NCBI GenBank assembly: GCA_002689385.1
Contig: NZFX01000061.1
Span: 3,722-51,122, forward strand
Reading direction: 5' to 3'
Length of the DNA stretch: 47,401 nucleotides
Source of the DNA: Phycisphaerae bacterium
Lineage (GTDB): Bacteria; Planctomycetota; Phycisphaerae; Phycisphaerales; SM1A02
Shown one piece after another: positions 19,678 to 47,401 of the stretch. The notes under the pieces were generated by a model that did not search any database, was not told where the DNA came from, and saw only the letters and a program-made list of their open reading frames with translations. Every line of letters begins with the position of its first letter. Positions within the stretch are counted from its first letter, which is position 1. The position numbers were made by a program, and so were the translations under genes.

Positions 19678-20647
19678 ATCTTTGCTCGTTCTTGCCCTTG
19701 TTGGTTGTTCGTCAAATGTTGATGACAATAAAACAGTTACAGTGTATGTTTCTGCTGACGAGCAAATAGCGAGAGAAGTGTTTGATTTATTCACAAAAAA
19801 GACTGGAATTGAAGTCGCATGGGTGGGCGATACAGAGGCCTCGAAAACGACAGCACTTGTGCAACGTATTCTTCGCGAGAAAAACGATCCAGTCGCTGAT
19901 GTGTTTTGGTCATCTGAAATTCTCGGGACTATTCAATTAACAAAACAAAACGCTTTCACTAGCCACAATTCCACATCGGCAACTGCATGGCCAAGGGAAT
20001 TCCGAGACGAAGAGTTTTCCTGGTTCGCATTTTCTCCAAGGGCAAGAGTCATTGCATACAATCCAGATAAAACCCTTCCAAGCGAGTTGCCAGAAACATG
20101 GTGGGAGTACAGTAACAGTGCCATGGCTGACCCACGATTTGGGACCACTGGTACACATATAGCTGTTCTTTCGTTGTACCCAGAACTATTTAAAAAGTTT
20201 GTCTCAACACGTTCCACAATACCTTTGCTTGGTGGAAATGCAGCGACTGTTCAAGCAGTGATAGATGGTTCTGCAAAATATGCAATGACAGACAGTGATG
20301 ATGTACATGCGGGCATTGCTCGAGGTGCATCGCTCGCAATGCATTATCCATTGCATCACGAAGGTAAAGATGGTGGAACACTGCTTATTCCAAACACAGT
20401 TGCGATCATTCGAAACTGTTTACACCCTGATACTGCATCTATATTCGTGGACTTTTTATTGAGTGACCAAGTTGCAACACACTTGGCCGAATCGACTTCA
20501 CACAATATTCCGCTGCAACCTACAGTTTCAGCTATGTATCCTGAATTGCGTGTAGAGAATCCACTTGCAGTTTCCTTTGTCCAAGCAGAAGAAGCCAAAA
20601 GAGAAGCCATTCAAGAGCTTATGAAAGCACTGCGTGTTGATGAATAA
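19652..20647 (+). CDS. Iron(III)-type ABC transporter solute-binding lipoprotein
   Basis: A 331-residue lipoprotein of the FbpA/AfuA-like extracellular solute-binding family. The signal MMNLNQTIKSLLVLALVGC ends in the lipobox LVGC, with Cys19 lipidated. The mature part begins VTVYVSADEQIAREVFDLF, then KKTGIEVAWVGDTEASKT, the hinge-like DVFWSSEILGTIQLTKQN, and ARVIAYNPDKTLPSELPETWW, all matching ferric-iron binding proteins. Later AMTDSDDVHAGIARGASLAM and a C-terminal LSDQVATHLAES block fit. It overlaps the preceding gene by 26 bases and the following permease by 8. The ligand (Fe3+, another metal or an organic ion) cannot be fixed from sequence. Confidence 0.88.
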   Translation: MMNLNQTIKSLLVLALVGCSSNVDDNKTVTVYVSADEQIAREVFDLFTKKTGIEVAWVGDTEASKTTALVQRILREKNDPVADVFWSSEILGTIQLTKQNAFTSHNSTSATAWPREFRDEEFSWFAFSPRARVIAYNPDKTLPSELPETWWEYSNSAMADPRFGTTGTHIAVLSLYPELFKKFVSTRSTIPLLGGNAATVQAVIDGSAKYAMTDSDDVHAGIARGASLAMHYPLHHEGKDGGTLLIPNTVAIIRNCLHPDTASIFVDFLLSDQVATHLAESTSHNIPLQPTVSAMYPELRVENPLAVSFVQAEEAKREAIQELMKALRVDE

Positions 20648-23042
20648 GAATACCGTGATGTTTCCGTGTGTTGCAATAGGCATCGCAACGGTAGTAATTC
20701 TTCTGCCAGTTTTTTTTGGCGGAATGCCATCGACCTCTGCGCCTAAAGTCGAGGCCTTAAGTTTAGAATCGTCTGGATCGATTATTGTACGGACTGTAAC
20801 CTGGTCTTTTCTTATTGCAATGGTCTCAACGACAATGGGTTGGCTCCTTGGAATACGGATGGCATCCTTGCGTAAACGAGCGCTCGTTTGCATGCAAGTA
20901 ATGCTCGTTGTGACACTGGTGATACCTGCGTATGCAATTTTTTATGTTTGGTGGCAAACATGGCCTTCGGGTACAGCTTTTCATGCGTTTGTTGTAGAAC
21001 ACGGCTACCTGCAATTAGCAATTCGTACCTGCTTGTTCTGTGCGCTTGTTGGGTGGTCTTGGCCGATACCTGCACTTGTCGCCTCTATGTACCACCATTC
21101 AGGCGCGACTTTATCGGTGTTGCACAGACTCGATGGCCTGTCTTTTGTCAGGCGCTGCATGCTTCAAATACAACAAGATTACAAAGTGCTTAGTTCAACA
21201 GTCATACTTGTTGCTTCACTAGTTGCAGTCAATACAACCTGTTTTGATCTTGCGCAAGTGGTAACGATTGGTAATGAACTCAGAAGTCTCTTGGCTTCAG
21301 GTGGAACTGCACTTACTGCACCTGCTTTGAGTTTTACGGGTTTCTTTATTGCAATTGTCGCAACGTTGTTTCTTCTTCGCCTTACTTCAGAAAAAGAATA
21401 CACCAAATCGTTTGGGACAAAGTCTATGCTTCCCGTTCTTCTATTTTGGTTTTTGCTCTCTGGTTTGCCCATAGTCATTGCATTGATTGTCACTAATAGC
21501 GAGGTGTTTCAGTTATTGAAAGTATATTCAGGTGATATTTGGGCGAGTGTACGCATAGCTTTTGGCGTGTCAGTTTGTAGCATTCTCATTTTTATCACTT
21601 CTGCTCGTATGCATACCTCAAACTGCCATCAGCATAAATTCGTAGCAACAATTCTTGATTATCTCTGGGTTGTCGTTGCGTTTCTTCCGGCGAGTATTGT
21701 AGTTTCTCTCTACGCTACTTCGTGGCATCTGATTGGGATGGATTTTGTGTATCGAACTCCAATAATTCTTATTTTTGCACATCTGACAAAGGTCGGTTTT
21801 GTCGCTTCGCTCGCAGGACGGTGGGTGGCATCAAACAAGAGCATGCAGATTCTTAGTGCAATTGATATCACATCTTCTGTGCCATCTTTTTTAACGGCAT
21901 TCGCACCGCGGCTTATTTCAGCAGGTGTTGCCGTTATTGGGATTTCTTTTGCGATTTCGTTCGGCGAAGTTGCTTTAACCAACCAGCTTTCACCACCTTC
22001 GGCGAATCAGCCAATCGCAGTTGCACTGTTACATGCAATGCATTACCAACGCCCACAGATGGTAACTTCTGCATTGTTCTTACTGATTATTATTGCTGGT
22101 GCAAGTGGAGTATTCTTTATGTTTGTACAAAGAAAAGTTGCAAGTGTCGTAATTCTTTTTTGTATTGTTTCCTGCTCGCCGGTTACCCCTGAAGCACTAT
22201 CAAACGCCACCGTCCTCGGAGGTGTTGGTAGGTCGGATGGTCGATTTACTACGCCAAGGGCAATAGCATCCAACGAAGAATTTCTTGTTGTGATTGATAA
22301 AACGGGTCGGTTGCAACGGTTTTCCCATGACGGTTCGTTTTTGTCCTCATGGGAGTTAAAACTTGATGGGACGGGATTTCCAACGGGTGTTTCAATCGAT
22401 AGCGAGGGTTTGATATGGATTGCAGATACGCATCAGCATCGAATACTTGTTCTAGACCAAGAGGGCAATGAAGTGTTTCATTTTGGTGAATACGGAACAC
22501 TAGATGGTCAATTTTTATATCCAACAGATATTGCTTTTGGAAAAAAAGGTGAAGTATATGTCGCAGAATACGGTGGGAACGAACGCATTAATGTCTTTAC
22601 GCGTGAAGGAGTGTTTCAATATTCGTTCGGGCATTTTGGGAATGATGAGGACGGTTTTATTCGACCTCAGTCAATTGCCATTTCACCGTTGACAGGCAAT
22701 TTATTCATTACTGATGCAGGCAATCATCGAATCGTTGAACGGACTCCAACTGGTGCATTCGTTCAAGTGATTGCCTCACCAGGTCGAAGCCAAGGTGAGG
22801 TATTGTTTCCGTATGGGATTATCTTTGACTCTGCTGAGACGTTCTTGGTTTGCGAATTTGGCAATAATCGGCTGCAGCGATTTACCACACAAGGTGAATC
22901 CTTGCAAACATTCGGCGGCGCAGGGGATGCCGCAGGGCTGTTTAAAACTCCTTGGGCAGTCGTGCTTGGTCGCGATGAACTTATTGTTGCAGACACCGGA
23001 AACAACCGTCTTCAGCGGTTGCCCGATATGATGGGGATGTGA
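20640..23042 (+). CDS. ABC transporter permease fused to an NHL-repeat propeller
   Basis: About 800 residues in one open frame. Residues 1-500 are a polytopic membrane protein like iron(III) permeases (FbpB type), with about 12 hydrophobic segments. The second half carries an EAA-like loop (AISFGEVALTNQLSPPSANQ followed by PIAVALLHAM). Right after the last segment comes MFVQRKVASVVILFCIVSC, an excellent lipoprotein signal, then SPVTPEALSN and about 300 residues of NHL/six-bladed propeller repeats (IWIADTHQHRILVLD, VYVAEYGGNERINVF, LFITDAGNHRIVERT, FLVCEFGNNRLQRF, LIVADTGNNRLQRL). The internal ATG at 22119 could therefore start a separate 307-residue lipoprotein, so the frame may yield two proteins. 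GTG 20634 is an alternative start. No ATPase gene for this transporter is adjacent. Confidence 0.85.
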   Translation: MNKNTVMFPCVAIGIATVVILLPVFFGGMPSTSAPKVEALSLESSGSIIVRTVTWSFLIAMVSTTMGWLLGIRMASLRKRALVCMQVMLVVTLVIPAYAIFYVWWQTWPSGTAFHAFVVEHGYLQLAIRTCLFCALVGWSWPIPALVASMYHHSGATLSVLHRLDGLSFVRRCMLQIQQDYKVLSSTVILVASLVAVNTTCFDLAQVVTIGNELRSLLASGGTALTAPALSFTGFFIAIVATLFLLRLTSEKEYTKSFGTKSMLPVLLFWFLLSGLPIVIALIVTNSEVFQLLKVYSGDIWASVRIAFGVSVCSILIFITSARMHTSNCHQHKFVATILDYLWVVVAFLPASIVVSLYATSWHLIGMDFVYRTPIILIFAHLTKVGFVASLAGRWVASNKSMQILSAIDITSSVPSFLTAFAPRLISAGVAVIGISFAISFGEVALTNQLSPPSANQPIAVALLHAMHYQRPQMVTSALFLLIIIAGASGVFFMFVQRKVASVVILFCIVSCSPVTPEALSNATVLGGVGRSDGRFTTPRAIASNEEFLVVIDKTGRLQRFSHDGSFLSSWELKLDGTGFPTGVSIDSEGLIWIADTHQHRILVLDQEGNEVFHFGEYGTLDGQFLYPTDIAFGKKGEVYVAEYGGNERINVFTREGVFQYSFGHFGNDEDGFIRPQSIAISPLTGNLFITDAGNHRIVERTPTGAFVQVIASPGRSQGEVLFPYGIIFDSAETFLVCEFGNNRLQRFTTQGESLQTFGGAGDAAGLFKTPWAVVLGRDELIVADTGNNRLQRLPDMMGM

Positions 23043-42687: not shown

Positions 42688-42709
42688 ACGACCCGCGGGG
42701 TCGTTTATT
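42683..42709. terminator. Bidirectional terminator covering both stop codons
   Basis: AATAAACGACCC (42683-42694) and GGGTCGTTTATT (42698-42709) form a 12-bp perfect stem with loop GCG. The stop codons of the MgtC-family gene (42685-42687) and of msrBA (42705-42707) lie in its two arms. Confidence 0.8.
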
Positions 42710-43715
42710 CCCACGGATTTGTAATGTGGCATGCCCTGCCCGTATTCTCTATGTAATCTTGATGGCCTTCTTCGGCAAGATAAAACTGTTCAGCTGGTTC
42801 GACCTGCGTTGCAATCGGTGCGTCAAATGTATTTTTTGCAGTTAATCCCTTGACGAACTCGATGGCGGTTTTTTGTTGTGCATCGGAAGTAGTCCATACA
42901 CCTGATCGATATTGAGAGCCAACATCGGGTCCTTGGCGATTGACTTCTGTTGGGTCATGCATTTTGAAAAAAGCATGAAGTAGTGATTCGTATGAGATAA
43001 CTTTAGGGTCAAACATGACTTTGGCAGTCTCCGCATGTCCTGTTTTTCCAGAACAAATGTCTTTATAGGTTGGGTCATCAGTGTCACCCTGCATATAACC
43101 GCTTTCAACATTAAGCACACCTTTGCCCTTTTGGAACCAGTGTTCAATGCCCCAAAAACAACCGCCTGCAAAATATGCTGTTTCTGTTTGCACAGGTTTT
43201 GACTCTGTGGGCAGTTCTTCGCCTTCTTCATAAAAATGTAAAGATGCGGAATTTAAACAAAATCGTTTGCCGGTTGGTTTAGGCCCATCTTCAAAAACGT
43301 GGCCTAGATGGGAGTCGCATTTTGCGCAGAGAATCTCAACGCGCTTCATGCCGAATTGTGTATCTTCTTTTGTTGCAACATGTTCTTTTGCAAAAGGGGA
43401 GAAGAAGCTTGGCCAACCAGTTCCAGAAGTGAACTTATGATCGCTTGCAAACAAGGGAAGTCCGCAAACAACGCATGCATAGAACCCATCTTTTTTGTTG
43501 TCGAGAAGTGTTCCACAAAAGGGTCGCTCAGTGCCGGCATTCTGAGTGATTCTGATCGTTTCCTCATCGAGTTTTTCGAGAAGTTGTTTTTTTGCCTCGG
43601 CGGCAAGCGGCGTAATGTCATAACCAGCACGAGAATAGGTTGGCATTTTTGCCTCCTGAGGGGGTAAGTATCCACTCGCGCTGAGCACGAGAATCAATAA
43701 GAGTTGAAAGTACAT
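42705..43715 (-). CDS. msrAB: Peptide methionine sulfoxide reductase MsrB-MsrA fusion, exported
   Basis: About 336 residues. It repairs both R- and S-methionine sulfoxide. A hydrophobic N-terminus (MYFQLLLILVLSASGYL) suggests export or membrane anchoring, so the enzyme probably acts in the periplasm. MsrB comes first: CGTLLDNKKDGFYACVVCGL, HKFTSGTGWPSFFSPF, CAKCDSHLGHVFEDGP and the catalytic KRFCLNSASLHFYEEG, with two zinc CxxC pairs. MsrA follows: AYFAGGCFWGIEHWFQ (catalytic GCFWG), YMQGDTDDPTYKDICSGKTG, FFKMHDPTEVNRQGPDVGSQ and YRSGV. In-frame upstream TTG (43748) and ATG (43733) exist, but TATACT six bases before the ATG at 43715 supports this start. Confidence 0.93.
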   Translation of the reverse strand: MYFQLLLILVLSASGYLPPQEAKMPTYSRAGYDITPLAAEAKKQLLEKLDEETIRITQNAGTERPFCGTLLDNKKDGFYACVVCGLPLFASDHKFTSGTGWPSFFSPFAKEHVATKEDTQFGMKRVEILCAKCDSHLGHVFEDGPKPTGKRFCLNSASLHFYEEGEELPTESKPVQTETAYFAGGCFWGIEHWFQKGKGVLNVESGYMQGDTDDPTYKDICSGKTGHAETAKVMFDPKVISYESLLHAFFKMHDPTEVNRQGPDVGSQYRSGVWTTSDAQQKTAIEFVKGLTAKNTFDAPIATQVEPAEQFYLAEEGHQDYIENTGRACHITNPWE

Positions 43716-43721
43716 ACAGAT

Positions 43722-43727
43722 AGTATA
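43722..43727 (-). promoter_or_regulatory. Predicted -10 element of msrBA (TATACT)
   Basis: On the minus strand TATACT ends 6 bases before the ATG at 43715, with TTTGTT 16 bases upstream (43744-43749). This again gives a leaderless layout. Confidence 0.45.
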
Positions 43728-43774
43728 AATCATACACAGAATAAACAAAATCTCTCTATTTAAGAAAAAAATGA

Positions 43775-44049
43775 CTCTTTATCTTTCTCTTTGCAACCAC
43801 AGGCATTGGTAACGATTCGACCTTTAGAATGATTTGAGCCATTTTTGATCGTGATCAACGAGTCCCAGCTCTTGACAGGGCTGCGGTTGCTGCAGCGTAT
43901 GGTGTATTCCTCATACCTTTGATTTCCCAACACAAATCAAGGCCGGAACTCTGCAATGTGCCCTCTACGGCTTCGCATACTACTTCTTGACCTGTTTAGC
44001 GGTAAATTGGTGGTTTTATGCTCGTAAAAACGATGAAATCAAGTGCTAA
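43775..44049 (+). pseudogene. Decayed 3' end of an NNP-family nitrate/nitrite transporter gene
   Basis: The 370-base gap between msrBA and coxC is not random. One plus frame reads LFIFLFATTGIGNDSTFRMI, then an in-frame TGA (43835-43837), then AIFDRDQRVPALDRAAVAAA and YGVFLIP. After a frameshift near 43917 the next frame continues FDFPTQIKAGTLQCALYGFA and YYFLTCLAVNWWFYARKNDE, then IKC and a stop at 44047-44049. Together this matches the last roughly 95 residues of NarK/NNP major-facilitator nitrate transporters (TGIGNxSTFRMI, AVAAYGxFxIP, LYGF...NWWFYxRK; from memory). The first three quarters of the gene are gone and the remnant is broken twice. No functional protein is expected; it marks loss of nitrate uptake by deletion. 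Confidence 0.75.
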
Positions 44050-44119: not shown

Positions 44120-45319
44120 ATGTCTGAATGCCACGAGCCAAATGTTCAACACCACTATCGCGATATGTCGCAACAACACGACGCTGCGAAGTTGGGTATC
44201 TGGTTATTCCTTGCGACTGAAATTCTGCTTTTTGGCGGTCTGTTTTGTGGGTACGCTGTGTTTCGTGCAAACCACCCAGACCTCTTTAAATGGGGCGGCC
44301 AGTTTCTAGACGAACGGTATGGCGCCGCTAATACCGCCGTTCTACTTATAAGTAGTTTGACAATGGCGATGGCTATCACGTACGTTCAACAAGAAAAGCG
44401 CCGTTTAGCAATTGCTTGCTTGGGCATAACATTTGTTTGTGCCGGCATCTTTATGGCTATCAAGTCCGTTGAGTACGAACATAAATTCCACGACCACCTT
44501 CTTGGCGGCATGGCGTTCTATGAAACAAGCGACCACGGTGATGACATGGGGGGCGACCATGCTGCATCTGTCATTGCACACGGTGACGCTGAAAAAGGCA
44601 AGATTCTTTGGAATGCAACATGTCGTTCATGCCATGGCGCAAATGGCGAAGGTGTTCCAGGTCAAGGTACAGTGTTAAACACAAGTGCGTTCGTGTACGA
44701 CCACGATGACACTGAACTCTTGGAGTTTATTAAGGTGGGCCGTCCCGCAAACGCACCGGATAGTATTTTGCAATTGGAAATGCCTCCAAAAGGCGGCAAC
44801 CCAATGCTGAAGGATTCAGCAATACTTGATATCGTTGCGTACATGCGGACATTGATGGTGCCAGTTGCGTCTGCGGATAAAAAGGGTGCTATTCACGAGG
44901 AAGTGGCAGTTGCCACAGCTCCTGTTGTAGCAAACGCACCTGAAGAGGCAAAAGCATTTCTTGATTCTATCCCTAGCTCGTCCATGCCAAATGCAATGCA
45001 TGCGCCATCTGGACTTGCGCCTGAAGGCGCATCCGAAGCGCAACGGATGGCGGTGTATGAACGACCAAAAGTTCCACAACTTGATGAAAAACGTCCAGCA
45101 AATGCGCACCTTTTCTTTGGTTTGTATTTCCTTATGACTGGCTTGCACGGCATTCACGTGATTATTGGCATGATTGTTTTGCTTTGGCTGATGTGGCGTT
45201 TACAGCGAGGCGACTTCACCAAGCGATATTACTCAGCAGTAGAGTGCGGCGGTTTATACTGGCACATTGTTGATGTGATTTGGATCTTCCTCTTCCCACT
45301 TTGGTATCTCTTGGCTTGA
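44120..45319 (+). CDS. Cytochrome c oxidase subunit III with an inserted cytochrome c domain
   Basis: 399 residues. Residues 22-120 are the first three helices of a short subunit III ([57 protein letters not shown]). The last two helices are at the end ([20 protein letters not shown] with [12 protein letters not shown], and [20 protein letters not shown]). Between them, about residues 150-250, sits a class I cytochrome c domain. It has haem motif CRSCH (168-172), [11 protein letters not shown], and probable axial Met221 in LEMPPKGGN, and ends [11 protein letters not shown]. An Ala/Pro/Ser-rich linker (250-320) returns to helix four. With five helices and the N-terminus inside, this loop is periplasmic, as haem attachment requires. 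GGAG lies about 10 bases before the ATG. The other oxidase subunits are outside the window. Confidence 0.92.
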
Positions 45320-46277: not shown

Positions 46278-47401
46278 TTAGTCATACATTGCAATGCCGG
46301 TAGGGATGTTGCAGTCGCAATGGCATTCACAATCGTCGTTATGGCTGCCGTCAAATCGGTCTTCGTCCTGATGGCCCTCATCATCGTTCTCGTCGCCATC
46401 CTCGTCATCGTGATGATCATCCCCATCGCCGTTGTTTCCATTGTTTTCATTTCCTCCGCATCCGTTTCCGCCATTGTCGCTGTTGTCATTATCATTGGCA
46501 TCATCTTCGTGTTCGTCATTGTCACTGCTATTGTCACTACCATCGTCGTTATGACAACAACATCTACACGAATCAGCATCATCGTCAGTTGGAAGTTCGC
46601 CATCAAACGGAGCGTGGTGTGATTCGCCGTTTCCTTGAATTGTTCGGCAGACTAGCGCGCCATCTATTTGACCGTTATTAAATTGAATGTTGGCAGTTGG
46701 CGCAAGAATAGTTCCCTGCCAACCAATACCATTCAATTGGACAGAGTTCGCAATCGGAAAATTAAACAAAACATCACTAGGACTGCAGCCATTAAGCACT
46801 GGCTGGAAATTATTCAGTTGCATTGCATGATGGTCAACATTGACAAGCACAGAAGAACCTTGCGGAACTGTTATTGACATGCCCCATAGAGGATTCAAAT
46901 CACTCTGGCTAAGGTGAAAAATATTAATGCCAGGGTCAGAACCAGTCATGTTGAGTTGTCCCCATGAATTTGAAACACGTCCGTTTGCTGAAGAAGAAAA
47001 CAACGCGTTTGATAAAAATTGCAATTCAGTTTCTGCATCATCAAAATCTATAGCCACTCTGTTGCCAACACTTCCATTTGGCATGCCCACATTGTTCATA
47101 TTTGCCGAACCGATTACTTGGACATTGCCGTTAAAACTTTGTCCATTATTCCAACTTAATGTTCCCGCAACGATAAGGTCATCTCGCGTTCCATTTGAAT
47201 TAGGAAGCGATGAACCCACGCCAAAATTGTTGTACGTTGCAGACCCGCCAACAGCAATCCGTCCAGTGCAGTCGGTGTTGTTTGCTTGGTAACTTTCAAT
47301 TGTGAAGATGGTGAATCCATCCGCCGGCCCAAGCCCGTTTGCAAGCCCCATTGATGTGAGTAGTGTGGTTGAAGCTAACGATATCAAAGATTGTTGAGCA
47401 A
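46278..47401 (-). CDS. Choice-of-anchor A family surface protein with acidic cysteine-flanked tail, N-terminus beyond the window
   Basis: About 373 residues are visible; the frame stays open to the right edge. The residues there (AQQSLISLASTTLLTSMGLA) look like the end of a signal peptide, so the true start lies outside. Residues near the start, DGFTIFTIESYQANNTDCTG and RIAVGGSATYNNFGVGSSLP, are the hallmark of choice-of-anchor A domains. VDHHAMQLNNFQPVLNGCSP and IGWQGTILAPTANIQFNNGQ with IDGALVCRTIQG complete it. The last 96 residues (46281-46568) are unusual: CRCCCH, about 75 residues made largely of Asp, Asn, Glu, Gly and His, then CECHCDCNIPTGIAMYD. The tail may bind calcium or other metals. 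No standard anchor is seen after it. Confidence 0.85.
   Translation of the reverse strand, partial: AQQSLISLASTTLLTSMGLANGLGPADGFTIFTIESYQANNTDCTGRIAVGGSATYNNFGVGSSLPNSNGTRDDLIVAGTLSWNNGQSFNGNVQVIGSANMNNVGMPNGSVGNRVAIDFDDAETELQFLSNALFSSSANGRVSNSWGQLNMTGSDPGINIFHLSQSDLNPLWGMSITVPQGSSVLVNVDHHAMQLNNFQPVLNGCSPSDVLFNFPIANSVQLNGIGWQGTILAPTANIQFNNGQIDGALVCRTIQGNGESHHAPFDGELPTDDDADSCRCCCHNDDGSDNSSDNDEHEDDANDNDNSDNGGNGCGGNENNGNNGDGDDHHDDEDGDENDDEGHQDEDRFDGSHNDDCECHCDCNIPTGIAMYD

Follow-up and report, generated by a model that had tools for sequence, protein, structure and literature searches.

Known subunit III proteins and oxidase-linked cytochromes c

Oxidase subunit III generally counts as devoid of redox centres, with a role in stability and proton uptake. 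Within the COX3 family, the five-helix form represented by CyoC of cytochrome bo3 and CtaE of actinobacterial aa3 oxidase shares its five helices, fold and conserved motifs with the protein described here, which differs by a loop of about 200 residues carrying a cytochrome c and by the lack of adjoining oxidase genes. NorE, a COX3-family protein of denitrifiers, is haem-less, and its gene lies next to norCB. In caa3 oxidases a cytochrome c is likewise covalently part of an oxidase subunit, but it is fused C-terminally to subunit II, together with CuA, and not placed inside subunit III; the genome studied here encodes both arrangements. CcoP of cbb3 oxidases is also a membrane-anchored cytochrome c of an oxidase, but has a different membrane part, and our protein reached 29.1 bits against TIGR00782, far below the cut-off of 179.95. 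The nearest haem-less relatives are the long-loop COX3 proteins of Phycisphaerales ACIII-caa3 operons (18 loci), which have a motif before helix 4 in common with the haem-bearing form but lack CxxCH and are encoded between COX1 and COX4. According to the available text of PMC11266412, Phycisphaerales encode ACIII. A functional parallel is offered by the ACIII-aa3 supercomplex of Flavobacterium johnsoniae, for which the available text of PMC8552683 proposes the sixth-haem domain of ActA as a tethered shuttle: it too is a membrane-tethered haem domain with a proposed role in carrying electrons to the oxidase, but it is a part of ACIII and not of the oxidase, and its membrane part is unrelated. 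The same text gives this domain as absent from Rhodothermus marinus, an owner of caa3 oxidase (PMC8552683).

We found no description of a cytochrome c inside subunit III in the openly licensed literature, a scope that falls short of proof of absence. The available portions of PMC9145763, PMC8407424 and PMC3475470 do not describe the architecture. PMC10732223 discusses, in the portion available, MAG OFTM33, which carries one of the haem-form genes (L019), and the available main text contains neither 'subunit III' nor 'fusion'.

Architecture of the haem-bearing subunit III

The window, i.e. the whole stretch of DNA analysed (47,401 nt), derives from Phycisphaerae bacterium (Bacteria; Planctomycetota; Phycisphaerae; Phycisphaerales; SM1A02; GCA_002689385.1, contig NZFX01000061.1, positions 3,722 to 51,122 of the forward strand). 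An open reading frame at 44120..45319 (+ strand, ATG start) encodes a protein of 399 aa with matches above the Pfam cut-offs to both COX3 (PF00510; E 2.3e-18, 67.4 bits vs a cut-off of 23.8, in two stretches, the best at residues 333–396) and Cytochrom_C (E 6e-11, 43.9 bits vs 21.3, residues 157–245). The best NCBIfam scores were to five-helix subunit III families, i.e. CyoC (104 bits) and actinobacterial CtaE (100 bits), and lie below the respective equivalog cut-offs of 224 and 190. Neither Pfam nor NCBIfam gave a COX2 match, hence a CuA domain is absent and the protein is not a caa3 subunit II fusion.

Hydropathy and both structure models agreed in predicting five membrane helices and in placing the haem insert in the loop that joins helices 3 and 4. 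Helices 1–3 span residues 16–51, 65–90 and 94–124 (44165..44491, + strand; second model and hydropathy), with Glu34 in helix 1, and helices 4–5 span residues 329–362 and 372–397 (45104..45310, + strand; second model), where the best COX3 stretch lies. The cytochrome c domain (residues 155–246, 44582..44857, + strand) holds a single CxxCH, C168-x-x-C171-H172, as the haem attachment motif CRSCH (44621..44635, + strand), and Met221 within MPPKGGN as the predicted distal haem ligand (44780..44782, + strand). Judged from these residues, haem is probably attached to the protein. A linker of ~80 residues (44858..45103, + strand), the least constrained part and mostly modelled at low confidence, leads back to the membrane.

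We relied on the second structure model (48 rows, mean pLDDT 78.5); the first (23 rows, mean pLDDT 60.5) had a best Foldseek PDB match of only E 0.12. Both represent the window protein alone, as a chain free of haem and partner subunits. In VIA-align comparisons the helices of the second model superposed on solved subunit III chains with Z scores of about 20 (for example 184 residues of 1v54_C at 2.1 A). Residues 153–247 gave a match to cytochrome c-554 (4j20_A) with Z 11.3, covering 85 of 88 residues at 2.0 A. The COX3 core is complete: all 23 aligned rows keep Glu34 and the HGxHV-type and YWHxVDxxWI motifs without change. The PF00510 score above the curated cut-off and the five-helix fold identify the membrane part as a subunit III, and CxxCH, the distal Met and the cytochrome c fold identify the insert as a class I mono-haem cytochrome c. 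Positive charges exceed negative ones in the loops between helices 2–3 and 4–5, whereas acidic residues prevail in the haem loop (17 K+R, 31 D+E), so the haem is placed outside, a placement that also draws on the orientation of solved COX3; the acidic N-terminal tail is an exception and does not help to orient the protein.

These results bear out what a first-pass annotation had read from the letters, namely a five-helix subunit III with a cytochrome c domain and its Met ligand between helices 3 and 4, and the charge pattern supports its periplasmic placement of the loop, the N-terminal tail apart. It had named two ways in which this reading could fail. The first, separate genes joined by an assembly error, is contradicted by homologues that are single genes; the second, a fold unable to host the haem domain outside the membrane, is contradicted by the model, in which the subunit III and cytochrome c parts stay separate units. 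Its contrast with caa3 oxidases held as far as the insert does lie in subunit III, but is softer than stated, as subunit II of the same genome also has a cytochrome c motif.

Conservation, selection and distribution

A contig scan recovered 52 relatives, which we grouped ourselves into 22 with one CxxCH (389–448 aa), 18 haem-less long-loop proteins and 12 short plain COX3; the queries of the scan were six peptide patterns taken from the window protein, with a bias towards near relatives. The architecture accordingly occurs in other Phycisphaerae, where the first-pass annotation had suggested looking for it. CxxCH and Met are exactly 53 residues apart in 33/33 aligned homologues (30 distinct), a spacing conserved far beyond chance, and the arrangement is unchanged in five further copies or fragments. 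In the window's family, 19 of 101 genomes (the source genome included) have the haem form; 16 of them gave full-length matches, and in the three with partial or split matches CxxCH and Met were confirmed. At E 1e-55 or better, only three of 392 genomes in a phylum sample matched, all from the window's family; this negative is weak because at most the best four candidates per genome were scored.

Comparison of the window gene with ten near relatives gave dN/dS of 0.006–0.068 for the membrane parts, where computable. Values for the haem domain were 0.041 and 0.062 in two pairs, with the other eight saturated (pN/pS 0.17–0.33), and those for the post-haem linker were 0.20–0.36 in nine pairs, with one saturated; all dN/dS values are rough because synonymous sites are near saturation. 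The membrane parts and the haem domain are under purifying selection. A viral or mobile origin was rejected: phage records contained no match to the haem form, fold comparison at E 0.001 gave no viral match, and among 171 matching plasmid records none covered 80% of the query.

Gene neighbourhoods

The first-pass annotation had assumed an oxidase setting, which the neighbourhoods do not show. The gene lies outside the oxidase operon, and many relatives stand with nar, nosZ or DMSO-type II genes. None of the caa3 operon genes COX1, COX2, COX4 and ActC was present in the 36 neighbourhood rows holding or flanking the haem form (several rows overlap or share a genome, and flank lengths differ), whereas all 18 haem-less long-loop relatives are in caa3 operons, flanked by COX1 some 1.1 kb upstream and by COX4 some 1 kb downstream. 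The haem form is adjoined by nar genes in L005, L007, L009, L012, L015–L018, L022 and L119, and by DMSO-type II molybdoenzyme genes in L019, L118 and L128; NosZ/NosD lie within about 6.5 kb in L113, L114 and L116, and a cytochrome cluster with a porin holds it in L020, L021, L023 and L117. Scores exceeded the NCBIfam cut-offs for NarG (L111), NarI (L007), NosZ (L114, L116) and NosD (L116), and the type II alpha subunits (L019, L128) had their best NCBIfam scores as such, yet below the cut-off. In L007 the gene order is narH, narJ, narI-cytochrome c fusion, narK, narK2 and haem COX3, with nar names that are in part our assumption. The nar operons carrying haem COX3 encode a NarI with a cytochrome c part fused at its C-terminal end (L007:2555-4336).

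NarH of the nar-operon kind was found in five of the 101 family genomes, all five among the 19 with the haem form (Fisher p 1.5e-4; 0.0025 without the window's own genus; shared descent is not removed). These associations favour another reading, in which the protein would transfer electrons in nitrate or nitrous-oxide respiration as a membrane-anchored cytochrome, with the COX3 fold as haem anchor only, the NarI-cytochrome c fusion and other cytochromes in place of an oxidase as partners, and another periplasmic pathway served in the window's genome. We consider this possible but rather unlikely: all COX3-invariant residues are kept, which is more than a mere anchor requires, and the haem form is retained in genomes of the genus that yielded no NarH. 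NarH was found in five of the 13 genomes of the window's genus, one a fragment, and is missing from the other eight, including the source genome, all of which have the haem form; the genomes are incomplete (97.9% for the source genome).

Genus loci with an MsrAB neighbour and nar missing comprise L002–L004, L006, L008, L011, L013, L014 and the window. In the window, this divergent neighbour (42705..43748, − strand), which we take to be MsrA/MsrB-like, is of the kind that adjoins the haem form where nar is absent. Between the two genes lies the C-terminal end of narK2, a nitrate/nitrite transporter gene (43775..44049, + strand), as a remnant that is interrupted by an internal stop and changes frame (tblastn E 9e-31 vs NarK2 of L007). 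This remnant, and the failure to find NarH in the source genome, indicate that the nar operon decayed there and the haem form survived. The position behind a decayed gene could also suggest an assembly chimera or a chance-kept relic of the lost operon, which we regard as barely credible, since the haem form is a single gene in 22 separate contigs, is present in 13/13 genus genomes and is under purifying selection; the identical single-gene layout on these contigs excludes an assembly artefact.

Two carriers have more than one copy in different contexts. L110 (G088, contig C278) has a pair of diverged haem-COX3 genes separated by about 7.5 kb, one adjoining an Rrf2-type regulator and NarG, the other heading a cytochrome/porin cluster. 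L008 and L012, both from MAG SI073_bin8, have haem-COX3 in the MsrAB and in the nar context, respectively, and could reflect a mixed bin. Elsewhere in the window, an 802-aa frame (20634-23042, + strand) combines, as judged by eye, ABC-transporter-permease-like and NHL-repeat-like parts and is a fusion or a frame artefact, and a secreted-looking protein (46278-47399, − strand) has an extremely acidic, Asp/Glu/Asn/His-rich tail and a relative at the same place in L007.

Oxidase genes of the source genome and genus

The source genome encodes its caa3 oxidase on contig C27 and the haem-bearing subunit III on contig C12. The order on C27 is pentahaem ActA-like, ActB-like, ActC, ActD, ActE, ActF, a 112-aa protein, SCO, COX2, COX1 and COX4, with names based on similarity to a protein set labelled by ourselves and on the usual gene order. 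ActE has one CxxCH, COX2 a CQSCH, and the ActA-like protein five haem motifs. The only PF00115 (haem-copper subunit I) match in the genome is the caa3 COX1, and G012, G018, G023, G055 and G057 likewise have one match each.

The frequent denitrification-related neighbourhoods would also suit a NorE-type subunit III homologue supporting nitric oxide reductase, given that NorE is itself a COX3-family protein of denitrifiers. PF00115 presumably covers NorB, so that, in this PF00115 search, no NorB was seen in the source genome, and the window contains no COX1/NorB-type gene, i.e. the gene is not beside norCB. A NorE-type role is therefore improbable, even with a haem-copper oxidase III gene placed by norCB in a P. 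aeruginosa table in the available text of PMC8756737.

COX1 is directly followed by COX4 in 9/9 readable genus operons (the source genome, G018, G055, G097, G101, G102, G103, G105 and G108); the remaining four genus genomes have either no main COX1 or one that is incomplete or divided between contigs. The haem form is kept in 13/13 genus genomes, with 14 copies (two in G107), and searches with COX3 and with a haem-less relative recovered an ordinary subunit III in 0/13. Other COX3 matches in the genus were three proteins of about 205 aa encoded with a second COX1 (G079, G097, G104). A divergent COX3-prime lies 3' of COX4 in three of the 13 (G018, G102, G103); the source genome has no similar frame between COX4 and the contig end, and none was found by search. 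Such a COX3-prime (about 190–230 aa) follows COX4 in several ACIII-caa3 operons (L024:9401-10036, L121:9253-9819), so that one such operon can code for two proteins resembling subunit III. In seven of the 13 genus genomes, including the source genome as well as G106 and G107, which lack a complete COX1, no subunit III other than the haem form was found. Outside the genus, at least 13 of 14 family genomes with the haem form also have a haem-less COX3 among the matches listed.

Relationship of the haem-bearing and haem-less forms

The motif before helix 4 is present in 28/33 haem-form rows and 18/18 haem-less long-loop proteins, and in 0/12 plain COX3. As it is common to both long-loop forms, their common ancestor probably had a long loop. 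Phylogenetic analysis placed the haem-less long-loop form as one clade (100/100) nested inside the haem form, and the haem form fell on one side of a branch in 0% of 200 bootstrap trees; the AU test did not reject the haem form as one clade (p 0.249). The tree omits P_L041, P_L044, P_L049, P_L051, P_L057 and three duplicates (an earlier tree omitted nine rows). The haem-bearing form may be ancestral, with the standard planctomycete long-loop subunit III as its haem-losing descendant.

Proposed role and implications

We propose, with a probability of about 0.5, that the caa3 oxidase of the window's genus uses the haem form as its subunit III and that the tethered cytochrome acts as a mobile carrier of electrons. 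In favour are the complete COX3 core, purifying selection, the retention of the haem form in every genus genome, even those without NarH, the single subunit I of the source genome, and the direct succession of COX1 and COX4 in the genus, at the very place where the 18 haem-less relatives are encoded. The architecture, conservation, selection, neighbourhoods and absence of the ordinary gene are computed results; assembly with subunit I and the direction of electron flow we infer. The five helices would pack against subunit I in the subunit III site, and the haem domain, tethered by linkers some 30 and 80 residues long, would move so as to carry electrons between subunit II and either ACIII (ActA/ActE) or other cytochromes of the periplasm. 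A shuttle need similar to that suggested for F. johnsoniae may exist in the source genome, given the five haem motifs of its ActA-like protein. An entry of electrons beside the oxidase, as the first-pass annotation had envisaged, is plausible in this genus because ordinary subunit III was not found there. In other genera the haem form would be an additional, accessory subunit III whose gene often accompanies those for nitrate, nitrous-oxide or related respiration, and it may serve as an alternative subunit III or as a membrane cytochrome of nitrogen-oxide respiration.

Several observations count against the caa3 role. With caa3 operon genes at none of the 36 loci, the haem form is not encoded with subunits I and II, a co-encoding that is typical of the COX3 family if not strictly defining. 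Outside the genus the gene stands with nar, nosZ or DMSO-type II genes, in genomes that mostly also list a haem-less COX3. Subunit II already has its own cytochrome c motif, 3/13 genus genomes have COX3-prime, the genomes are incomplete, and oxidases are able to work without subunit III.

A further-reaching version, which we regard as unlikely and put forward tentatively, is a redox-active subunit III, maybe ancestral, whose tethered haem would join the oxidase to nitrate/nitrous-oxide cytochromes in one electron-sharing supercomplex and which would have displaced the ordinary subunit III of ACIII-caa3 in the genus. If true, oxygen respiration would be tied to nitrogen-oxide respiration, and a subunit III with a conserved cytochrome c would be a new electron port of the oxidase. 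The window's genus resembles a natural swap experiment, in which the haem form stays and ordinary subunit III is not found, and a possible part of subunit III in electron delivery is therefore directly testable.
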